A stretch of 64,000 nt of DNA from Salinibaculum litoreum (GTDB lineage: Archaea > Halobacteriota > Halobacteria > Halobacteriales > Haloarculaceae). Below are positions 5,756 through 32,368 of the stretch, one piece after another. Under the pieces are notes generated by a model. The model worked only from the letters and a program-made list of their open reading frames with translations, searched no databases and had not been told where the DNA came from. The first letter of the stretch is position 1. Each line of letters begins with the position of its first letter. Location: NCBI GenBank assembly GCA_009789175.1, contig CP046866.1, positions 1,426,001 through 1,490,000 of the forward strand. The letters run 5' to 3'. The translations under genes and the position numbers were made by a program.

Positions 5756-6736
5756 TCAGTGGCGCTGCAGACTGGCGACGGCAGCGTCGTCGTGCTCACA
5801 GGCCAGAGCGTCGAGGTCACGGGCCAACCGGAGCGCACGCAGGCCGTCCTCGCCAGTCACGGCCGGCGTCTGTCCCTCGCGGACGGTGTCGAGGAAGGCA
5901 TCGATTTCGCGCTCCAGGGGCTCCCCGCTGTCGACGGCCGGGCGTTCGACGAGACTCTCGTGCCGGAAGCGCACGTCGCCGTCCTGTTGGACGTACTCGG
6001 GCACCGACTGTCGGTGGACACGGACGGACTGGTCGGCGTAGTCGACGACGACCCGACACTCCTCGGCGGTAATCGAAAGCGTCCGGACCTTCTGCTGGGT
6101 GACGCGGCTGGCGGTAAATTGGCCGACAATACCGTCGTCGAAACGGACCGTCGCCGTCGCGTAGTCCCCGCCTCTGATACCGGTTGCCGCCACGTCCTCG
6201 ACGGAGCCCTCGGTCATCGCAAGAGCCACATCGAGGTCGTGAATCATCAGATCCAGCACGACGCTGTCCGAGATGGTCCGGTCGACAGGCGGACCGAGGC
6301 GGTGAGCGTCGACGGCGATGACGTTCAGGTCCTCGATGAGACCCAGTGTCGTCTGGACGGCCGGATTGAACCGCTCGACGTGGCCGACTTGCAGGGTGAC
6401 CCCGGCATCGCGTGCGCGCTGGATGAGCTCCTCGCCGTGTGGTGGTCGCGCGACGAGTGGCTTCTCGACGAGGACGTTCACGCCGGCGTCGATGGCGTCG
6501 CCGGCCACCTGGTAGTGGAACTCCGTAGGTACAGCAACGGAGACGACATCGACGCCGGCGAGTAACCGCTCCAGCGGGAGTTCGTCGGTATCGTGCTGGC
6601 GGGCGACTGATTGGGCACGCTTGCGGTCCGCATCGGAGACACCGACCAGTTCCACGTCCCGATTTTCGGCGTAGATACGGGCGTGGTGAGTGCCCATCGC
6701 CCCAGTTCCGACGACGCCCGCACGTAGCTTACTCAT
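5756..6736 (-). CDS. Gfo/Idh/MocA dehydrogenase, probable UDP-GlcNAc(A) 3-dehydrogenase (WbpB/WlbA-like)
   Basis: 326 residues. A Rossmann fold starts at GVVGTGAMGTHHARIY, the conserved EKP is at 91-93 (VLVEKPL), GHVERFNP is at 118-125, and His166-Asp167 lies in MIHDLDVAL. The GHxERFNP stretch is typical of the WlbA/WbpB type, which oxidises C3 of UDP-GlcNAc uronate to the 3-keto sugar. It overlaps the aminotransferase gene by 8 nt in the three-gene operon 8422-5756. That gives the pathway order 3-oxidation, 3-amination, 3-N-acetylation. The exact nucleotide sugar is inferred from this gene set. Confidence 0.85.
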   Translation of the reverse strand: MSKLRAGVVGTGAMGTHHARIYAENRDVELVGVSDADRKRAQSVARQHDTDELPLERLLAGVDVVSVAVPTEFHYQVAGDAIDAGVNVLVEKPLVARPPHGEELIQRARDAGVTLQVGHVERFNPAVQTTLGLIEDLNVIAVDAHRLGPPVDRTISDSVVLDLMIHDLDVALAMTEGSVEDVAATGIRGGDYATATVRFDDGIVGQFTASRVTQQKVRTLSITAEECRVVVDYADQSVRVHRQSVPEYVQQDGDVRFRHESLVERPAVDSGEPLEREIDAFLDTVREGQTPAVTGEDGLRALRLARDLDALACEHDDAAVASLQRH

Positions 6737-7844
6737 CGTTCACCACGTACTCGACGGCGGTCGCAACCGTCCGGATATCCTCTGCCGAGAGGTTGGGGTG
6801 GACGGGCAAGGAGAGCACTTCCTCGGCGGCACGTTCGGCCTCGGGCAGCGTCGCGGTCACGTCGTCGTAGGGCGGCAGTTTGTGGATGGGCGTCGGGTAG
6901 TACACCCCGGTATCGATACCGAACTCGTCGAGGCGGTCGCGTATCCGCTCGCGATTCCGACAGCGAATGGTGTACTGGTGGAAGACGTGTCGACGCCCCT
7001 CGGGGATAGTCGGGACGACGAGCCCGGCATCGGACAGGCGATGGGAGAGGACGCGCCCGTTGACGCGGCGAGCAGCAGTGTACTCGGGCAGGCGGTCGAG
7101 CTGTCCCAGTCCGATGGCGGCCGCGAGGTTCGTCATCCGGAAGTTGTGCCCCAGCCGTTCGTACTGGCTGCCATCGTCGACGGCACGGCCGTGATTGACA
7201 AAGGAGGCAGCCCGGTCGGCGACCGCCTCGTCGTCGGTGACGACCATCCCTCCCTCGCCGGTGGTCATATTCTTCGTCGGGTAAAACGAGAAGGCCGCGG
7301 CGTCACCGAAGGAACCGACAGGCCGGTCGTTGACGGTCGCACCGTGGGCCTGAGCGCAGTCCTCGATAAGTGCGGCGTCGTACTCCTCGGCCAGTGCCTG
7401 AAACGCCTCCACGTCCGCTGGGAGGCCATAGAGGTGGACGACGAGTATCGCATCGACCGCCCCGTCCCAGGCCTCGATGGTCGTTCTGGCGGCATCGGGG
7501 TCTAAGTTGTACGTCCGCGGGTCGATATCGGCGAAGACGACCTCCGCACCGCAGTGGCGGACTGCGTTGGCCGTCGCGACGAAGGAAAACGGCGTCGTGA
7601 GGACCCTGTCGCCCTCGCCGATATCGAGCGCTTCCAGCGCCGCATGCAGGGCCGCGGTGCCGTTTGCCGTCGCGACGCCGTGGCCCACGTCACAGTAGTC
7701 CGAAAACCGCTCCTCGAATTCCCTGACCTCTTCGCCGTCGGCGAGCCGTCCGGCGTCGAGCACCGAGTGGACACGCTCCTTTTCCTCGGCAGTGATGTCG
7801 GGGTCGGCGATGGAGATATCCCTGCGGTGTTCACTCGTGGTCAT
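6729..7844 (-). CDS. DegT/DnrJ/EryC1/StrS aminotransferase (WbpE/WlbC-like)
   Basis: 371 residues, normal family length. The PLP-binding lysine is K191 in SFYPTKNMTTGEGG, preceded by the EDCAQAHGA stretch around residue 161. These fold-type I enzymes transfer an amino group, usually from glutamate, to a keto-sugar nucleotide. It sits between the acetyltransferase (4-nt overlap upstream) and the Gfo/Idh/MocA dehydrogenase (8-nt overlap downstream), so it is the expected 3-aminotransferase of a diamino-uronate pathway. Transcription is probably driven from the element at 8480-8491. Confidence 0.9.
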   Translation of the reverse strand: MTTSEHRRDISIADPDITAEEKERVHSVLDAGRLADGEEVREFEERFSDYCDVGHGVATANGTAALHAALEALDIGEGDRVLTTPFSFVATANAVRHCGAEVVFADIDPRTYNLDPDAARTTIEAWDGAVDAILVVHLYGLPADVEAFQALAEEYDAALIEDCAQAHGATVNDRPVGSFGDAAAFSFYPTKNMTTGEGGMVVTDDEAVADRAASFVNHGRAVDDGSQYERLGHNFRMTNLAAAIGLGQLDRLPEYTAARRVNGRVLSHRLSDAGLVVPTIPEGRRHVFHQYTIRCRNRERIRDRLDEFGIDTGVYYPTPIHKLPPYDDVTATLPEAERAAEEVLSLPVHPNLSAEDIRTVATAVEYVVNDE

Positions 7845-8422
7845 GCGATACAGTTGCCCCCCACGAGCTGGTCCGGCAGGTCGCGGTGTTCGGCAGGCGT
7901 CCCGACCGCCAGCGTCTCCGGCGGGACATCCTCGGTGACGACGCTGCCGGCGGCGACGAACGAGCCCCGACCGACAGTCACCCCGGGAAGTATCGTCGCG
8001 TTCGCGCCCACGGACACGTGGTCTTCGAGCGTTGCCCCCTCCAGACTCCCGTCGGTCCGGATGGGGTAGGCGTCGTTCGTGATGACGGCATGCGGGCCGA
8101 GAAACACCTCGTTGCCCAGTTCCGACCCCGGCGGAACGTACGCTCCGGTCTGGAGGCTGACGTGTGAGCCGAGGGTGACCTGCCCGTCGATGACGGCGTT
8201 GGTGCCGACGGTCACATCGTCGCCCGCAGTCGTCGCTTCCCTGACGACGGCGCCATGTCCTGTGGTGAACTCCGCACCGATTTCTACGCCACCGTAGATG
8301 ATAGCCCCAGACCGGATTGTCGCGTTCTCACCGATGATTGTCCATTCGTCCTCGTCGGCCTGGTGACCGACAGTCGCTCCCGCGGAGACGAAGCTCCCGT
8401 CCCCAATCTGTGTGTGTGACAT
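7841..8422 (-). CDS. Hexapeptide-repeat sugar N-acetyltransferase (WbpD/WlbB-like)
   Basis: 193 residues made almost wholly of left-handed beta-helix hexapeptides (GDGSFVSAGATVG, GVEIGAEFTTGHGAVV, LGSHVSLQTGAYVPPG). The family acetylates the 3-amino group of UDP-2-acetamido-3-amino uronates using acetyl-CoA; H57-like residues in the TTGHGAVV turn may serve as the base. It is the first gene of the operon, and its stop overlaps the next start (ATGA). The leader is about 36 nt if the element at 8480-8491 sets transcription. Family certain; the exact acceptor is inferred from the neighbours. Confidence 0.88.
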   Translation of the reverse strand: MSHTQIGDGSFVSAGATVGHQADEDEWTIIGENATIRSGAIIYGGVEIGAEFTTGHGAVVREATTAGDDVTVGTNAVIDGQVTLGSHVSLQTGAYVPPGSELGNEVFLGPHAVITNDAYPIRTDGSLEGATLEDHVSVGANATILPGVTVGRGSFVAAGSVVTEDVPPETLAVGTPAEHRDLPDQLVGGNCIA

Positions 8423-13434: not shown

Positions 13435-14784
13435 ATGAGCCAGCAGGGGACCTCTGTGAAACTCTACGACCGGGCCGGCAAGCAACGCCAGCGCCGGTTC
13501 CGCGAGGGAGAGGTGCCGGTTGCCGTCTACGGCCTGGGGAAGATGGGACTGCCACTGGCGGCCGTCTACGCGGAGACGACCGGCAACGTCACCGGTGTAG
13601 ATATCGACGAGACTGTCGTCGACCGCATCGAAGCCGGCGAGTGTCCAGTGGCGAACGAACCCGGGCTGGCCCCGCTGACCGAACGGCTCGTCGAGGAGGG
13701 GAAACTGACAGCCACGACCGATGGCCAGGAGGCCGCACGTGACGCGACCGTCCACGTCGTCATCGTCCCCACGGAGATACGGGACGGCGGGACAGTCGAC
13801 CTCCGGGCACTCGAGAGCGCAGTGGGGACAATCGCCACGGGACTCGACCCCGGGGATATCGTCATCGTCGAGTCCACCGTGCCGCCGGGGACGACCGCGG
13901 ACGTGGTCGCGCCGACGCTGGCGGCCGAAAGCGGGCTCGATAGGTCGGCGTTCGGCGTCGCTTTCTGTCCGGAACGAACCGCGAGCGGACGCGCACTGGA
14001 GGACGTGCGCGGTGCCTATCCGAAGGTCGTCGGCGGCGTCGACGACGAGAGTACGGCCGTCGCCGAGTTGCTCTACGAGGCGGTGACGGCAAACGAGGTG
14101 GTTCCCGTCAGCGACGCGACGACGGCGGAGTGCGTGAAAGTCTTCGAGGGGGTCTACCGCGACGTAAACATCGCACTGGCAAACGAGCTAGCGACGATGG
14201 CCGACGAACTCGGCATCGACGTCCGCGAGGCAATCGAAGTCGCCAACGGCCAGCCCTACTGTGACATCCATGCCCCCGGTCCGGGGGTCGGCGGTCACTG
14301 CATCCCGTACTACCCATACTTCCTCATCAGCGAGTACGACACCGCCACTCCCCTCATGGAAACGGCCCGGACCGTCAACGACGAGATGGCAGCCGTAACC
14401 GTCGACCGACTGGGCCAGGAACTGGCTGCCGAGGGAACCGACCTCGACGGCGCACGCGTGGCGTTGCTCGGTGTGGCCTACCGCCCCGGAGTCGACGAGA
14501 CGCGCGCAGCGCCGGCCCGTCGCATCGATACGCTGCTGCAGGACCGGGGTGCGGAGACGGTGGCCGTCGACCCGGTCTGTTCGGACCTCTCGATGTTGGC
14601 GGCGACTGAAATCGACATGGATGACCTGCCGGAGCAGCATCTCGACGCCGCTATCCTCGTCACGGCACACGAGGCGTTCGGGCGTCTCGACTGGGACGAA
14701 GTCGCAGAACTGCTGATAGATACCCGGGCAGTCGTCGACGGGTCGACAGTCGACGGCCGTGTGTACACGCTTGGCGGTAGTTAG
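13435..14784 (+). CDS. UDP-N-acetylglucosamine/mannosamine 6-dehydrogenase (WbpA/WecC-type)
   Basis: 449 residues. The Rossmann GxGxxG is in VYGLGKMGLPLAAVYAE, the middle domain has the conserved ANELA/ECVKVFEGVYRD stretch, and the catalytic cysteine is C289 in GVGGHCIPYYPYFL. These NAD-dependent enzymes oxidise C6 of a UDP-N-acetylhexosamine twice to the uronate. I chose the ATG at 13435, 8 nt after AGGAG; the GTG at 13426 overlaps that site. It would supply the UDP-GlcNAcA used by the 5756-8422 operon, though it is 5 kb away and on the other strand. UDP-ManNAc remains an alternative substrate. Confidence 0.88.
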   Translation: MSQQGTSVKLYDRAGKQRQRRFREGEVPVAVYGLGKMGLPLAAVYAETTGNVTGVDIDETVVDRIEAGECPVANEPGLAPLTERLVEEGKLTATTDGQEAARDATVHVVIVPTEIRDGGTVDLRALESAVGTIATGLDPGDIVIVESTVPPGTTADVVAPTLAAESGLDRSAFGVAFCPERTASGRALEDVRGAYPKVVGGVDDESTAVAELLYEAVTANEVVPVSDATTAECVKVFEGVYRDVNIALANELATMADELGIDVREAIEVANGQPYCDIHAPGPGVGGHCIPYYPYFLISEYDTATPLMETARTVNDEMAAVTVDRLGQELAAEGTDLDGARVALLGVAYRPGVDETRAAPARRIDTLLQDRGAETVAVDPVCSDLSMLAATEIDMDDLPEQHLDAAILVTAHEAFGRLDWDEVAELLIDTRAVVDGSTVDGRVYTLGGS

Positions 14785-25368: not shown

Positions 25369-26145
25369 ATGCCAGCCGACTTCACGTACGAGACTTATAA
25401 AGCACTGCTCGAAGCCTGCAAGAGACAGGGCATCGAAACGCTCACCGTCCGTGAGTATCTCGCCGCCGAAGGCCTCCCCGACCGGTTCGTCATTCTCCGC
25501 CACGACGTGGACCGGAAGCCGGAGAACGCGCTCGATTTCGCTCGCATGGAAGCCGAGTACGATGCGACCAGTACGTACTACGTCAGGACAGTCGACGAGA
25601 CGTTCGACCCCTGGCTGCTCGACTCCCTGGAGTCGCTGGGCCACGAAGTGGGATACCACTACGAGGATGTCGACCGGACTGACGGCGACATCAAGGCAGC
25701 CCACCGCTCCTTCCAGCGACACCTCGCCCGGATGCGAGCCCACGTGACCGTCGACACTGTCTGTATGCACGGCAATCCGCTGACGCCACACGACAACCGG
25801 GATATGTGGGGAGAGATGCCGGACTTCGACCAGTACGACCTGCTCGGTGAGGCGTATCTGTCGGTCGATTTCACTGACGTGCTGTACTTTTCCGATACTG
25901 GCCGCACCTGGCGGGACGGCGCGCTCAAAATCAAAGACCACACCGTCGGTGAGGATGGCAAGGACGTACAGGTCGGCACGACGGCGGAGCTCATCGACCT
26001 GGTCCGCCGGCGGGAGGACAGCTACTGTCTGCTGACTCATCCCGACCGGTGGGCCGGGGGAACAGTCGAGTACGTCGCCGAAACCGCGTTCGACACGGCA
26101 AAAAACGTCGCCAAGTACGGACTCCATGTCGTCCCCTCCCGCTAG
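25369..26145 (+). CDS. Polysaccharide deacetylase-like protein
   Basis: 258 residues from the ATG at 25369 (MPADFTYETYKALL); the frame upstream to 25261 is atypical. The motif RHDVDRKPENAL (residues 44-55) is the metal-binding start of polysaccharide-deacetylase-like proteins. Later GHEVGYHYED and CMHGNPLTPHDNRDMW hold further histidines, and the protein ends with LLTHPDRWAGG. No signal is visible. It may remove acyl groups from sugar intermediates, like the first gene in this window, but belongs to a different subfamily. AT-rich CTATTACCAT lies about 35 nt upstream. Confidence 0.8.
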   Translation: MPADFTYETYKALLEACKRQGIETLTVREYLAAEGLPDRFVILRHDVDRKPENALDFARMEAEYDATSTYYVRTVDETFDPWLLDSLESLGHEVGYHYEDVDRTDGDIKAAHRSFQRHLARMRAHVTVDTVCMHGNPLTPHDNRDMWGEMPDFDQYDLLGEAYLSVDFTDVLYFSDTGRTWRDGALKIKDHTVGEDGKDVQVGTTAELIDLVRRREDSYCLLTHPDRWAGGTVEYVAETAFDTAKNVAKYGLHVVPSR

Positions 26146-26400: not shown

Positions 26401-27510
26401 ATGCGAGTGCTGTTCGACGTGAACCATCCGGCACACGTCCACCTGTTCAGGAACGCTATCGAGGCCCTTGCCGCCGACGGTCACGAGACGGTCGTCACCT
26501 CACGCGAGAAGGATGTCACGACGGCGTTACTCGACGCCTACGGCATCGACCATCGACCGCTGTCGGCCAGCGGCTCGGGACTCACCTCGCTGGCCACCGA
26601 GTGGACACGTCGTGAACTCCGGCTGCTTTCGGTGGTTCGGGAGACGGAACCGGACGTCATCGTCAGCCGGTTGAACCCACCTGCGGTCCACGTCGGAACG
26701 GTGACCCGGACGCCGAATATCGTCGTCAGAGACACGAAGATTCGCTCACCACAGCTCGAACGGCTGTATCACGCGATTACGTTCCCGTTCATCGACACCC
26801 TCTGTGCGCCGCCGGACTTTAGCGTCCCGGCCGGTGCCGACCACTACCCGCTGGACTATCAGGAACTCGCCTATCTCCACCCCAGCCGGTTCGACCCGGA
26901 CCCCGAACCACTGCGTACACACGGCATCGACCCGGACGAGCGGTACTTCCTGCTCCGGCTCTCGGGTGTAGACGCGTTTCACGATGTCGGCTTCAGCGGA
27001 GTTTCCGAGACCGGAATGAGAGAGTTGCTCACTTACCTCGACCGGCGTGGGACAGTGTACATCTCCAGTGAGACAGCACTGCCCGAGGCGTATCAGCAGT
27101 ACGAGCTGCAGTTTCCACCGGAGTTGATGCATCACCTGCTGTACTACGCTGCCCTGTACGTCGGCGACTCGGGAACGATGTCCACAGAGGCGGCGCTGCT
27201 CGGGACACCAGCAGTGCGGATGAACACCATGGTCGGCATCGACGAGGAACCCATCTTCCGGGAACTCGAGGCGGCCGGGCTACTGTACTCCTTTGCCGAG
27301 GAAGACGCCGCGATAGAGCAGGTCCGCTCGCTCGTGGAAACGGCCGACGAAAGCCAGTGGGAACACCGCCGCGACGAGTTTATCGCCGACAAACCGGATG
27401 TCACCGCGGAGTTGCTCCACGTTATTCAGGAGACGGTGCGCCCGGGACAAGACTGGCAACCAGATGAGGTGGGTAGCCAGTCACGACGACCAAAACGGCA
27501 CTCGGAGTGA
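26401..27510 (+). CDS. DUF354 GT-B-like protein
   Basis: 369 residues from the ATG at 26401, with GGGGGT upstream. The N-terminus MRVLFDVNHPAHVHLFRNA is the signature of DUF354 proteins, which have a UDP-glycosyltransferase-like GT-B fold. The C-terminal half has the conserved YVGDSGTMSTEAALLGTPAVR turn at the nucleotide-sugar end. The family sits in archaeal surface-glycan clusters; catalysis is not proven. The stop TGA abuts the GNAT start with no gap, so the pair is translated together. Confidence 0.88.
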   Translation: MRVLFDVNHPAHVHLFRNAIEALAADGHETVVTSREKDVTTALLDAYGIDHRPLSASGSGLTSLATEWTRRELRLLSVVRETEPDVIVSRLNPPAVHVGTVTRTPNIVVRDTKIRSPQLERLYHAITFPFIDTLCAPPDFSVPAGADHYPLDYQELAYLHPSRFDPDPEPLRTHGIDPDERYFLLRLSGVDAFHDVGFSGVSETGMRELLTYLDRRGTVYISSETALPEAYQQYELQFPPELMHHLLYYAALYVGDSGTMSTEAALLGTPAVRMNTMVGIDEEPIFRELEAAGLLYSFAEEDAAIEQVRSLVETADESQWEHRRDEFIADKPDVTAELLHVIQETVRPGQDWQPDEVGSQSRRPKRHSE

Positions 27511-28662: not shown

Positions 28663-29289
28663 TCACGCCCCGCCAGTCGCAGACAACCCCTGCCAGTTCG
28701 AAAGCGCGTGCAGGTCGTAGCCGGGGATAGTCGGCACAGTGCCCAGCAGCGACCTGGGGACAACGCGGGTCGGACGGCGCATGTTCAACTCGAAGTAGAC
28801 ACCGGCCTCCCGGAGGGTGTCGAGAATCCGGTCGCGCTCGTCGTCAGTCAGCGCGAACTCACGCCGAACAGCATAGTCGAAGGGATGGGCCCACACGTCC
28901 ACTGCGGGGTTCTCAAGCATCCCAATCACGCTCTCGAGATACGCCTGCCGGGAGAACGAGCGGCCGTGGTACGCAGCGTATACCACGTCGGCACGGTCGA
29001 GTACCGCCTCGCTGGCGTCGAGTCGACCCTCGGTGTCGAGTACCGTCGCCTCACAGCCGACGACGCAATCGAGGTCGTAGTCCCTCGCCAGTCGCTCGAT
29101 GCGGTCGGCAAAGGTCACGAAGTCGTAGGTCGGCTCACGGCGGACGTGTTCGGCGAATCCGATTGCCGGAAAGTTCGCCTGCTCGGCCGCAGCCAGCAGG
29201 GTTTCAGGACCGTGTTCCCCGTCGGTCACGTCGGTGTGGACATGCCAGAGCCCGCTGTCGAGCAGTGCCGTGTCGAACGCGTCGCTCAT
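28663..29289 (-). CDS. PHP-domain phosphoesterase-like protein
   Basis: 208 residues. The metal motif begins H16-V-H18 in LWHVHTDVTDG, with GFAEHV, GCEATVL, a central HPFDYAV and the C-terminal GYDLHALSNW supplying further ligands. The PHP fold hydrolyses phosphoesters, such as sugar phosphates or histidinol phosphate. It is the last gene of a three-gene operon with ATP-grasp and PIG-L enzymes (4-nt overlap upstream). The combination suggests modification of an amino-sugar precursor; details are inferred. Confidence 0.85.
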   Translation of the reverse strand: MSDAFDTALLDSGLWHVHTDVTDGEHGPETLLAAAEQANFPAIGFAEHVRREPTYDFVTFADRIERLARDYDLDCVVGCEATVLDTEGRLDASEAVLDRADVVYAAYHGRSFSRQAYLESVIGMLENPAVDVWAHPFDYAVRREFALTDDERDRILDTLREAGVYFELNMRRPTRVVPRSLLGTVPTIPGYDLHALSNWQGLSATGGA

Positions 29290-30371
29290 CGGCTTCCCTG
29301 GCCCCCGATATCGTCGGTCACGCCATCGGAGACGCCCAGCCCGCCCCAGTACCGGTGAAAGCGCACGTCCCAGTCGGGGTCCATCGCCGGTACGTCTTCC
29401 CCGAGGGCGTCGCGAACTGCGGCGGCGATGACGTTCGCACCCGCGACCGTGCTCGTGACCATCGTCCCCTGAACCCGGGGGTTACACTCCAACAGACAGG
29501 GCTCGCCGTTCCTATCGACCTTGAACTGGAAGCCAAACGCCGCCTCCAGACCGAGGTCCGTGGCCAGCCTGTTGGTATGAGAGATGAGGGCTTCGTCCTC
29601 GACGGGTGTCGCGCCGAAACTGATGCCGGATTTCACCTGGTCCCGTCGCCGGGGCACGACTGTGGATTCGCCGTCGCCACCGGACGGACGAAAGGCATCG
29701 ACGGTATACTCCTCGCCAGGCAGGTACTCCATCACCAGCAACGCCGGGAACGACTCGCTCAGTACGTCGCGGACGCCCGAAAGCGTGGCATAGCGTCCGT
29801 CGGGTTTCTCCTCGTAGAATGCTCGCTTACGGTCGCGGGTCGCATCCAGAATCCGGACCCCGCGGCTCCCGTTCGAGACCGGCGGTTTCACCACTACTGG
29901 GTCCTCGGGATAGCCGAGACTGGTGGCCGCCCGCTGCAGCTCATCGCCGGTTTCGACCCGGACTGTCTCCGGCGTCGGCACGCCCGCCGACGTGGCGACA
30001 TCCGCCAGCCGCGCTTTGTCGTTCGCGAGTTCTATCGTCGCCCGGTCGCTGACGGCGACGGCTGCGCCGACTGCTTCGATCTGTTCTTGCGCGCCCGTGA
30101 GCACGGGCAGTTCCCGCGTCACCTGTGGGAGGACGACATCCACATCGGCGGCCGCACAGACCTCCAGCATCGCGGGGACGAACTCGTCGTCTTCGGCGAG
30201 TGGGACCTGGAAGAACTCGTCGGCGATGTACTGGCCGGCGTGGTCGGTGCGGGCGTCGGTGCCGACGATGGTCACGTCGGGAGCCGCTTTCCGAAGCGAG
30301 TGGCAGGTGCCGGGAAAGCCCGGTGCACCACAGCCGGTCACCAGGACCGTCGCCTCGCTCAGAGGACCCAT
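29286..30371 (-). CDS. ATP-grasp ligase (CarB-like), sugar-cluster type
   Basis: 361 residues from the ATG at 30371, with GAGGTGG 6 nt upstream. Rossmann-like N-terminus (ATVLVTGCGAPGFPG), ATP-grasp lid and loop (PVVVKPPVSNGSRGVRIL, VMEYLPGEEYTVDAF) and the Mg site at the end of the fold (LLECNPRVQGTMV). Such enzymes join a carboxylate to an amine via an acyl phosphate. The gene overlaps the PIG-L stop by 13 nt and is overlapped by the PHP gene. A likely role is adding an amino acid or carboxylate to the amine exposed by PIG-L, which is inference. Confidence 0.87.
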   Translation of the reverse strand: MGPLSEATVLVTGCGAPGFPGTCHSLRKAAPDVTIVGTDARTDHAGQYIADEFFQVPLAEDDEFVPAMLEVCAAADVDVVLPQVTRELPVLTGAQEQIEAVGAAVAVSDRATIELANDKARLADVATSAGVPTPETVRVETGDELQRAATSLGYPEDPVVVKPPVSNGSRGVRILDATRDRKRAFYEEKPDGRYATLSGVRDVLSESFPALLVMEYLPGEEYTVDAFRPSGGDGESTVVPRRRDQVKSGISFGATPVEDEALISHTNRLATDLGLEAAFGFQFKVDRNGEPCLLECNPRVQGTMVTSTVAGANVIAAAVRDALGEDVPAMDPDWDVRFHRYWGGLGVSDGVTDDIGGQGSR

Positions 30372-30991
30372 CGAACCACCTCGAAGGCCTCTGCGTACTC
30401 CGTGTCGGTCTGGAGACCGCGAACCGTCGCCAGCCCGCGGATGAACGACTCGGCAAAGTAGGGCCGGTCCCGTTCGAGTTGGCTGTCGTACTCCTGTAGC
30501 TGACGAATCTTCCACGTGATGTCCTCGTGTTGTAACGAGGTGAAGAGTTGCGTCTCGAAGGAGACGTGATTCCAGGGCTGCTCGTAGGAGATGATACTCG
30601 GCCCGCTTTTGAACGCACGGTGCATCTCGCGGGCCACGACGGCGTGGTCCTGGTGGGCATCCCCGAGGGAGGGCCCGATGACCAGGTCCGGGTCGATTTC
30701 GTCGCGGACCCGAATCAGCTCTTCCAGAATGTCCTGTCGACGTTCGTTGAACCGGCGGACAACGTAATCGAAGAGGTAGTACTCCGCCGGGTCGACGAGT
30801 TCCATGACGCTTTCGAACTCCGCTCTGAGTTGGCCCTGTTTGTCCTCGGAGAGTGATGCATCACACGAGGAGAAGGCGACGTAATGGATGTCGTGGCCCT
30901 GTCGCTGGAGCTTGTGTATCGTCCCGCCAGCACCGAGTTCGCTGTCGTCAGTGTGCGGGCTCAACACAAGCACGTCCATCGTCTCGCTCAT
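30359..30991 (-). CDS. PIG-L family N-deacetylase
   Basis: 210 residues, normal for PIG-L. The zinc site is in SPHTDDSELGAGG (His13, Asp15, Asp16) with the third ligand in GDAHQDHAVVAREMH. PIG-L enzymes remove N-acetyl from GlcNAc in lipid-linked or nucleotide sugars. First gene of the operon; element copy 8 is centred about 29 nt before the ATG, so probably leaderless. It would expose an amine for the downstream ATP-grasp ligase. Confidence 0.9.
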   Translation of the reverse strand: MSETMDVLVLSPHTDDSELGAGGTIHKLQRQGHDIHYVAFSSCDASLSEDKQGQLRAEFESVMELVDPAEYYLFDYVVRRFNERRQDILEELIRVRDEIDPDLVIGPSLGDAHQDHAVVAREMHRAFKSGPSIISYEQPWNHVSFETQLFTSLQHEDITWKIRQLQEYDSQLERDRPYFAESFIRGLATVRGLQTDTEYAEAFEVVRWVL

Positions 30992-31069: not shown

Positions 31070-32368
31070 TCAGGCATACCCGAGGTCCTCCAAGCGGTCA
31101 CGAGCCCTGTCCGAGACCTGCTGGTCGTCAGCATCGACCTCCCGTCTGTCGAGGTCCGCTACCAGCCCGGAGAGTCGCTCGGCCGGGTCCTCGTCAAACC
31201 GACCGATAGTCCGGAACCCGCGGGTATGAGTTTCGTGGGCCAGCGCCCCGCTGGGCTCGACGAACCCGTTCAGCGGGGCCCTCCGTTCCTCGAACGTCTC
31301 GGCGGGAACGTCCTTGCGGTCGAACTGTCCCTCGTGAAACGGGAGCAGACCGTGGTACTCGAACAGTGCCGGTGTCGGCTCAGGGTCACCGAGAAGGTCC
31401 TCGCCCCGTGAGTCCACGTCCAGTCCGGCCAGTGCAGCGACGGTCTGGTGGACGTCGAGCAGGCTCGTCACCCGGTGGTCGTACTCGGTAGCGATGTCGT
31501 CACCGCTTATGACCAGCGGGACGTGGACGAGTTCGGGCCACAGTCCGAAGGAGTGGTTCACCAGCCCGTGCTCCCCGAGCAGTTCCCCGTGGTCCGACAG
31601 CGTCACCACGTACTCGAAGTCATCGGTGAGGTCAGCGAATATCTCCCGGTAGCGTTCGGAGAGATAGTCGGCGGACGTGCGATAGCTGGCCCGAATCCGC
31701 GCGAGGTCAAGTGGCTCATCGGAGAAGGCATCTGCTGCCACGGCGATTATCGGGTCCCCGTCGTCGGGTGGGTGATACGGCGTGTGTGTCTCCATCAGGT
31801 TGACGAAGAGAAACTCGTCGTCCCCGAACTCCGTCCCGCGAATCCGGTCACGAACCGACCGTGCCCCGCCGTCGGCCTCCGAACGACGGTACAGCTCGAA
31901 TCCCTGCCTGAGCGAGCGCAGGGTGGCACAGTCCGTCCGGAGACACTGCCCGATTGCACGGGCGTACTTCTCGATTCCCGTCGCTGCGATGCCGTCGAAG
32001 GCGGCCCCCCAATCGAAGTCGTCTTCGCGGTATGCGTCGAGGCTGCTGTAGGTGACAAAGTCCTCAAAGCCACGGTCCCAGCCGTCGTAATAGCTCATTT
32101 GAGGGTTGGCGGTAAAGGCCCGCGTGTAGTGTCCGGCTGCCCGGAGCTGTTCGGCAAGCACTGGTTCGGGACAGTCAAGCATGGGCGAGTGGCCGTGGAC
32201 GCCGATTTCACTCGCGTACCGCCCCGTGAAAAGCGAGCCATGGACTGGCACCGTCCAGTGTGAGGGGGCATACGCACGGGTGAATCGTCTCCCCGGTAGC
32301 CAATCGAAGCTCTCGTAGAACGTGTCGTACCGGAGTGTATCCAGTACGACTACGGCGATGCTCGGCAT
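31070..32368 (-). CDS. Sulfatase-like (alkaline phosphatase superfamily) protein
   Basis: 432 residues. VVVLDTLRYDTF at the N-terminus gives the metal aspartates. The sulfatase motif position reads APSHWTVPVHGSLFTGRYA, with Ser/Thr instead of Cys, so a formylglycine sulfatase is unlikely and a phosphatase or phosphoglycerol-transferase type is favoured. The second metal site is VVTLSDHGELLGEHGLVNHS. The protein has no signal peptide. The promoter CTTTATAACC is about 28 nt before the ATG, so leaderless. It ends in RDRLEDLGYA like the product at 16551-17594. Confidence 0.85.
   Translation of the reverse strand: MPSIAVVVLDTLRYDTFYESFDWLPGRRFTRAYAPSHWTVPVHGSLFTGRYASEIGVHGHSPMLDCPEPVLAEQLRAAGHYTRAFTANPQMSYYDGWDRGFEDFVTYSSLDAYREDDFDWGAAFDGIAATGIEKYARAIGQCLRTDCATLRSLRQGFELYRRSEADGGARSVRDRIRGTEFGDDEFLFVNLMETHTPYHPPDDGDPIIAVAADAFSDEPLDLARIRASYRTSADYLSERYREIFADLTDDFEYVVTLSDHGELLGEHGLVNHSFGLWPELVHVPLVISGDDIATEYDHRVTSLLDVHQTVAALAGLDVDSRGEDLLGDPEPTPALFEYHGLLPFHEGQFDRKDVPAETFEERRAPLNGFVEPSGALAHETHTRGFRTIGRFDEDPAERLSGLVADLDRREVDADDQQVSDRARDRLEDLGYA

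Follow-up and report, generated by a model that had tools for sequence, protein, structure and literature searches.

A conserved PIG-L, ATP-grasp and PHP gene trio in archaea and its possible role in decorating amino sugars of surface glycans

Three neighboring minus-strand genes of Salinibaculum litoreum, encoding a PIG-L-fold de-N-acetylase, an ATP-grasp ligase and a PHP-family phosphoesterase, recur together in distant archaea and apparently represent a conserved module that has so far not been described. They are located in a 64,000-nucleotide stretch of the chromosome of this haloarchaeon, all of which was analyzed and which is called the window here. The trio is a variation of a known way of decorating glycans, by a ligase plus a phosphatase; among the open-licence papers searched, none was found to name both PIG-L and ATP-grasp. 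We tentatively propose, with a probability somewhat short of even, that the trio acts as one module decorating an amino sugar of a surface glycan (probably a 2,3-diamino sugar or the corresponding uronic acid), which would be deacetylated, ligated to a phosphorylated acid and then dephosphorylated. Three loosely annotated enzymes thereby become a single testable module across archaea and a candidate route by which archaea might link amino acids, or acids of other kinds, to the sugars of their surface. A PHP or HAD gene beside such an ATP-grasp gene could serve as a genome marker for amide-decorated glycans.

The gene trio and its proteins

The first gene of the trio (positions 30,359–30,991, minus strand, as for the other two) encodes the PIG-L protein of 210 amino acids (PF02585). 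The middle gene (29,286–30,371) has an ATG start and encodes an ATP-grasp ligase of the CPS-like/PylC-like kind with 361 amino acids (PF15632), and the last gene (28,663–29,289) encodes the metal-dependent PHP phosphoesterase of 208 amino acids (PF02811). The minus-strand reading frames agree with the gene order and the overlaps of 13 nt (30,359–30,371) and 4 nt (ATGA, 29,286–29,289) given in a preliminary description of this DNA. Spurious frames overlapping by chance were rejected as an explanation, since all three proteins exceed the curated Pfam cut-offs. In four distant archaea (L144–L147), an ATG permits a PIG-L/ATP-grasp overlap of identical length, and the 4-nt overlap of the ATP-grasp and PHP genes is also present in loci L077, L079, L127, L128, L144, L145, and L147. 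A sulfatase-like gene (31,070–32,368, minus strand) located 78 nt upstream of the PIG-L gene may be part of the same operon. Its product, which has a relative with 57% identity in locus L033, carries a Thr (SHWTVPVHGSLFTGR) at the sulfatase Cys/Ser position, as is also the case for phosphotransferases in the alkaline phosphatase superfamily.

The PIG-L protein matched PF02585 with an E-value of 5e-18 and 66.3 bits (curated cut-off 28.2). Its zinc site, composed of His-x-Asp-Asp and a distal Asp-x-His-x-Asp-His, is present and the residues H13, D15, D16, D111, H113, D115, and H116 were invariant in six sequences, so that the zinc and base residues (H13, D15, D16, H116) are retained. The nearest solved relatives are diacetylchitobiose deacetylase and BshB-type enzymes; the protein is not a BshB1 equivalog (TIGR04001, 46.7 bits versus a cut-off of 182.5) and also scores below the MshB equivalog cut-off. 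Judged from its sequence, a function as amino-sugar deacetylase is plausible and is predicted here; the hydratase 5cgz, which has the PIG-L fold as well, counts against regarding this role as assured.

The ATP-grasp protein matched PF15632 (ATPgrasp_Ter; 8.8e-30, 103.6 bits versus a cut-off of 29.1), CPSase_L_D2 and PylC-like_N, and also PRK12767 (“carbamoyl phosphate synthase-like”; 2e-38). Its AlphaFold model (pLDDT 73, with the last 27 C-terminal residues unreliable) superposed best on 2pn1 (Z 27.5, rmsd 2.8 across 288 residues), followed by biotin carboxylases, PylC (4ffr, Z 24.6) and PurK. The Pfam models above their cut-offs and the structural match both place the protein in the ATP-grasp fold. 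The closest structure, 2pn1, carries no known function. PylC, the 3-methylornithine-L-lysine ligase, and PRK12767/2pn1 are alike in fold and domain layout, and a PylC-like N domain was found in the trio ligase. PylC differs, however, in serving pyrrolysine synthesis, and the trio ligase is not its equivalog, as it scores under the NCBIfam equivalog cut-offs (TIGR03909, 32.2 bits versus 248.3). A role as candidate amide ligase is nevertheless plausible from the model, the relation to the amino-acid ligase PylC being one of resemblance only. Residues Q282, E295, and N297 lie in conserved alignment columns with the spacing of the Mg ligands of carbamoyl-phosphate synthase, and would fit as the predicted Mg-binding set.

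Biotin carboxylase, PurK and carbamoyl-phosphate synthase were among the top hits in the structural and profile comparisons and the Mg-binding residues suit the latter enzyme, which would also be in line with a carboxylase or carbamoylating enzyme forming an N-carboxy or carbamoyl product instead of an organic-acid amide. We consider this improbable, as PylC-type amide ligases have the same fold and the recurring phosphatase partner described below would be left unexplained. A role in a tellurium (Ter) operon, suggested by the name ATPgrasp_Ter, was set aside: no ter genes were noticed on viewing the neighborhoods, without a model search, and a literature search gave nothing applicable. In two archaea, a distant second ATP-grasp paralogue is encoded a few kb away from the trio (L145, 13,942–15,147; L147, 13,087–14,250).

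The PHP protein matched PF02811 with an E-value of 1.3e-10 and 42.3 bits (cut-off 26.4). Its metal-binding motifs are complete, with H16, H18, H48, E80, H108, H135, D192, and H194 being invariant in seven sequences. The model (pLDDT 86) resembled the PHP domain of PolX (Z 20.1), YcdX (Z 18.1) and histidinol-phosphate phosphatase (Z 16.1). With these proteins it has the fold and the metal-binding residues in common, but it differs from them in belonging to a stand-alone subfamily tied to ATP-grasp. The possibility that it is a fragment of the DNA polymerase PolX was rejected, given the stand-alone gene with a product of 208 amino acids and the wide E-value gap to PolX-type matches; among the weaker matches listed for 392 Halobacteriales genomes, almost all were located in frames of about 580 amino acids or longer, the length of PolX. 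A further, weaker match (G461, E-value 3.8e-29), which has neither ATP-grasp nor PIG-L beside it, was set outside the subfamily.

Recurrence of the trio and exchange of the phosphatase

With the PHP subfamily defined at E < 1e-60, members were found in four of the 392 Halobacteriales genomes, all four of which have the trio. Halorarius halobius also has it, a GTDB scan revealed all three genes in Methanothrix and Methanomassiliicoccus, too, as well as one Thermoplasmatota contig that stops inside the PHP gene, and a phylum-level search yielded the further loci L144–L147 and L150. A restriction of the trio to the source genome was rejected on the basis of these distant archaea. ATP-grasp and PIG-L genes adjoin the PHP gene in all 12 subfamily members with intact context, a count that omits the truncated contigs L129, L148, and L149; co-occurrence in archaea, which the preliminary description had named as a check, was thus confirmed. 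Because all four Halobacteriales PHP genomes and all 12 intact contexts hold the trio, its linkage is more than chance. The order PIG-L, ATP-grasp, PHP was found in eight of these trios and the order PHP, ATP-grasp, PIG-L in three (L040, L078, L150), whereas the PIG-L gene is convergent in L128. One trio is located on a plasmid, and that of Natronorubrum halalkaliphilum stands away from glycan genes.

The ATP-grasp gene could be traced into 44 loci, in which the phosphatase partner was PHP (13 loci), HAD (21 loci) or none (10 loci, one of them being L129, a truncated contig holding a partial PHP gene). A pairing of ATP-grasp with one of the two phosphatases, as in the Campylobacter-type system discussed below, was therefore present in 34 of the 44 loci, and PHP and HAD together in none of them. 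In six loci containing PIG-L, ATP-grasp and HAD genes (L041–L045, L124), HAD takes the place of PHP. This swap, the strongest clue to the mechanism, indicates that the pathway needs phosphate removal, whichever fold performs it. The ATP-grasp orthologues without PIG-L include 15 with HAD only and 8 with neither; 14 of the 15 HAD loci are in clusters carrying a polysaccharide-deacetylase-like gene, whose product might fill the role of PIG-L. In Sinorhizobium medicae, the PHP gene precedes the ATP-grasp gene and overlaps it by 4 nt. This pair, next to sulfate-activation genes (L130, 8,258–9,987, directly following cysD-nodQ-cysQ) and without PIG-L, possibly decorates a bacterial sulfated glycan.

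As PIG-L is absent from many ATP-grasp loci and the phosphatase can be swapped, ligase and phosphatase form the core of the module, to which a deacetylase is often, though not always, added. The “unusual combination” of the preliminary description therefore needs to be reworded, since the pairing of ligase and phosphatase is recurrent. In the ATP-grasp tree, which has several long branches and is uncertain in its deep placement, the trios appear in separate places. The state with both PIG-L and PHP needs five changes, at least four of which are forced by well-supported branches; the association was therefore kept or rebuilt more than once.

Two further arrangements of the ATP-grasp gene were observed. 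In L110 (7,990–9,937), it forms a divergent pair with a HAD gene, and no glycan genes were recognized immediately around it. On plasmid pHME505 of Haloferax mediterranei (L131, 9,396–15,062) and in L115–L120, an orthologous ATP-grasp gene is accompanied by genes for an acyltransferase, two nucleotide-sugar dehydrogenases and a DUF354 protein, without phosphatase and PIG-L.

The glycan region and the candidate substrate

That the trio belongs to a glycan cluster, as first described, was borne out by the gene content of the window, which besides glycosyltransferases includes genes for a UDP-GlcNAc 3-dehydrogenase-like protein, an aminotransferase and an acetyltransferase (5,756–8,422, minus strand; NF040723, WbpE-like and NeuD/QdtC-like, respectively) and for a nucleotide-sugar 6-dehydrogenase for uronic acid formation (13,435–14,784, plus strand). 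The first of these proteins matched NF040723 with 1.9e-69, under the curated cut-off; the 6-dehydrogenase scored above the cut-off of TIGR03026, with UDP-ManNAc dehydrogenase as the closest equivalog. Together, these four genes are what the synthesis of a 2,3-diacetamido uronic acid would be expected to require. Those at 5,756–8,422 likely supply the diamino sugar substrate, and the 6-dehydrogenase likely contributes to substrate supply as well. A glycosyltransferase-like DUF354 gene (26,401–27,510, plus strand; PF04007, 3.7e-12) is a likely partner of the trio, as six of the 11 other trio loci (L040, L078, L144, L145, L147, L150) have a DUF354 gene at a distance of at most 1.5 kb from ATP-grasp. 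Another gene of the window (25,369–26,145, plus strand) encodes a polysaccharide-deacetylase-like protein in which RHDVD and HEVGYH motifs were recognized by eye, with no Pfam match; distant relatives of it occur in ATP-grasp/HAD clusters.

Amino-sugar and uronic-acid genes repeatedly adjoin the trio. Relatives of the UDP-GlcNAc 3-dehydrogenase were found in 10 of 11 genomes with the PHP subfamily compared to 107 of 197 background genomes; the enrichment is modest and takes no account of relatedness among the genomes. This enrichment suggests that the substrate of the trio is a diamino sugar or diamino-uronic acid, the identity of the sugar being a guess. UDP-GlcNAc alone, which the preliminary description had put forward as the sugar for enzyme assays, may hence be the wrong choice. 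A strict reliance of the trio on the 3-dehydrogenase pathway was not upheld, because Halorarius halobius, the exception among these genomes, has the trio without a relative of that enzyme.

The ribosomal spc operon borders the glycan region (window positions 1–34,300). In G142, the one further genome found for this genus, SecY is followed by unrelated genes, and the region is therefore a variable island. This variability and the presence of one trio on a plasmid would be in accord with a mere co-location of genes from separate pathways in mobile glycan islands. We regard such a co-location as very improbable in view of the overlapping frames, the two opposite gene orders, the conservation in distant archaea, the isolated Natronorubrum trio and the swapped phosphatases. 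The assignment of the three genes to one pathway is instead well supported, by recurrence in distant archaea, opposite gene orders, translational overlaps and the exchange of PHP and HAD.

A possible pathway for amide decoration

In the proposed pathway, PIG-L would strip the N-acetyl group from the sugar and leave a free amine, which the presence of PIG-L makes the natural acceptor. The ATP-grasp enzyme would turn a carboxylic acid, probably itself phosphorylated (a phospho-amino acid or phospho-hydroxy acid), into an acyl phosphate and then into an amide with the sugar amine. Finally, PHP would take the phosphate off the ligated group, a role that HAD would play in the sister loci. The genes, their families, the conserved active-site residues, the linkage and the phosphatase exchange are observations, from which we infer the order of the steps, the sugar, the acid and the position of the phosphate on the incoming group. 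The order of deacetylation, ligation and dephosphorylation suggested earlier is plausible and its last two steps have a precedent in Campylobacter jejuni; the substrates are our conjecture.

In C. jejuni capsule amidation, (S)-serinol-phosphate is attached to GlcA by a ligase with ATP-grasp fold (Cj1438C/HS19.11C), and the phosphate is then taken off by a HAD phosphatase (Cj1435/HS19.09) ahead of chain growth (PMC13276843, PMC11800379). As proposed for the trio, this system combines an amide ligase of this fold with a phosphatase, acts on a surface polysaccharide and attaches the phosphorylated group first. By this analogy, the trio might ligate a phosphorylated partner and then dephosphorylate it. 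The C. jejuni ligase differs in being a TupA-like ATP-grasp protein fused to GT2 and in amidating the carboxylate of GlcA with serinol phosphate rather than a sugar amine, the likeness being one of fold and role; neither PIG-L nor PHP is reported in the steps described there. An archaeal parallel is the Methanococcus N-glycan, which contains a threonine amide at C6 of a (3-modified) ManNAcA beside GlcNAc3NAcA and whose attaching enzyme is given as unidentified in a review (PMC2952790). It resembles our proposal in chemistry, since an amino acid is joined through an amide to a surface sugar of an archaeon, and 2,3-diacetamido uronic acids are made alongside.

A broader reading, which we consider doubtful yet worth stating, is a hitherto undescribed archaeal acyl-exchange pathway in which the N-acetyl group of a diamino(-uronic) sugar is exchanged via ATP-grasp for a phosphorylated acid that is then dephosphorylated. 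The phosphatase (PHP or HAD) would have been replaced several times, and amide-decorated surface sugars would have gone chemically unseen.

Alternatively, the ATP-grasp enzyme might join a phosphorylated amine, such as an amino alcohol phosphate or amino acid phosphate, to the carboxylate of a uronic acid, giving a C6 amide that is trimmed by the phosphatase, while PIG-L separately deacetylates the same sugar. Direct biochemical precedent for a ligase and a phosphatase acting on a uronate comes from C. jejuni (PMC13276843), and the Methanococcus threonine amide is located at C6 as well (PMC2952790). Uronic-acid dehydrogenase genes are found near many ATP-grasp genes, including seven of the seven Haloferax-type loci without phosphatase and deacetylase (L115–L120, L131). 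Moreover, since ATP-grasp orthologues occur without PIG-L (with HAD only, with neither, and in Sinorhizobium), PIG-L is not necessarily the source of the amine, and the existence of ligase and phosphatase pairs without PIG-L keeps the C6 amide a serious rival. We nevertheless judge it rather unlikely: it leaves the strict linkage of the PHP trio with the deacetylase as a same-sugar coincidence, and several trio loci have no dehydrogenase gene inside about 8 kb.

The proposed amine decoration also recalls the synthesis of bacillithiol and mycothiol, in which a PIG-L deacetylase (BshB, MshB) is likewise followed by a ligase. These pathways use ligases and substrates different from those proposed here for the trio. 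A soluble mycothiol- or bacillithiol-like metabolite as product of the trio would be consistent with the resemblance of its PIG-L to BshB and, weakly, to MshB, with the isolated position of the Natronorubrum trio, and with the presence of a glycosyltransferase, a phosphatase, PIG-L, a ligase and a GNAT protein, the five activities of mycothiol synthesis, all encoded at 24–31 kb of the window. We assign little likelihood to such a product: to our knowledge, the ligases of the known thiol pathways are not of the ATP-grasp type of the trio, and most trio loci are located in sugar-nucleotide or glycan clusters without an adjacent GNAT gene.
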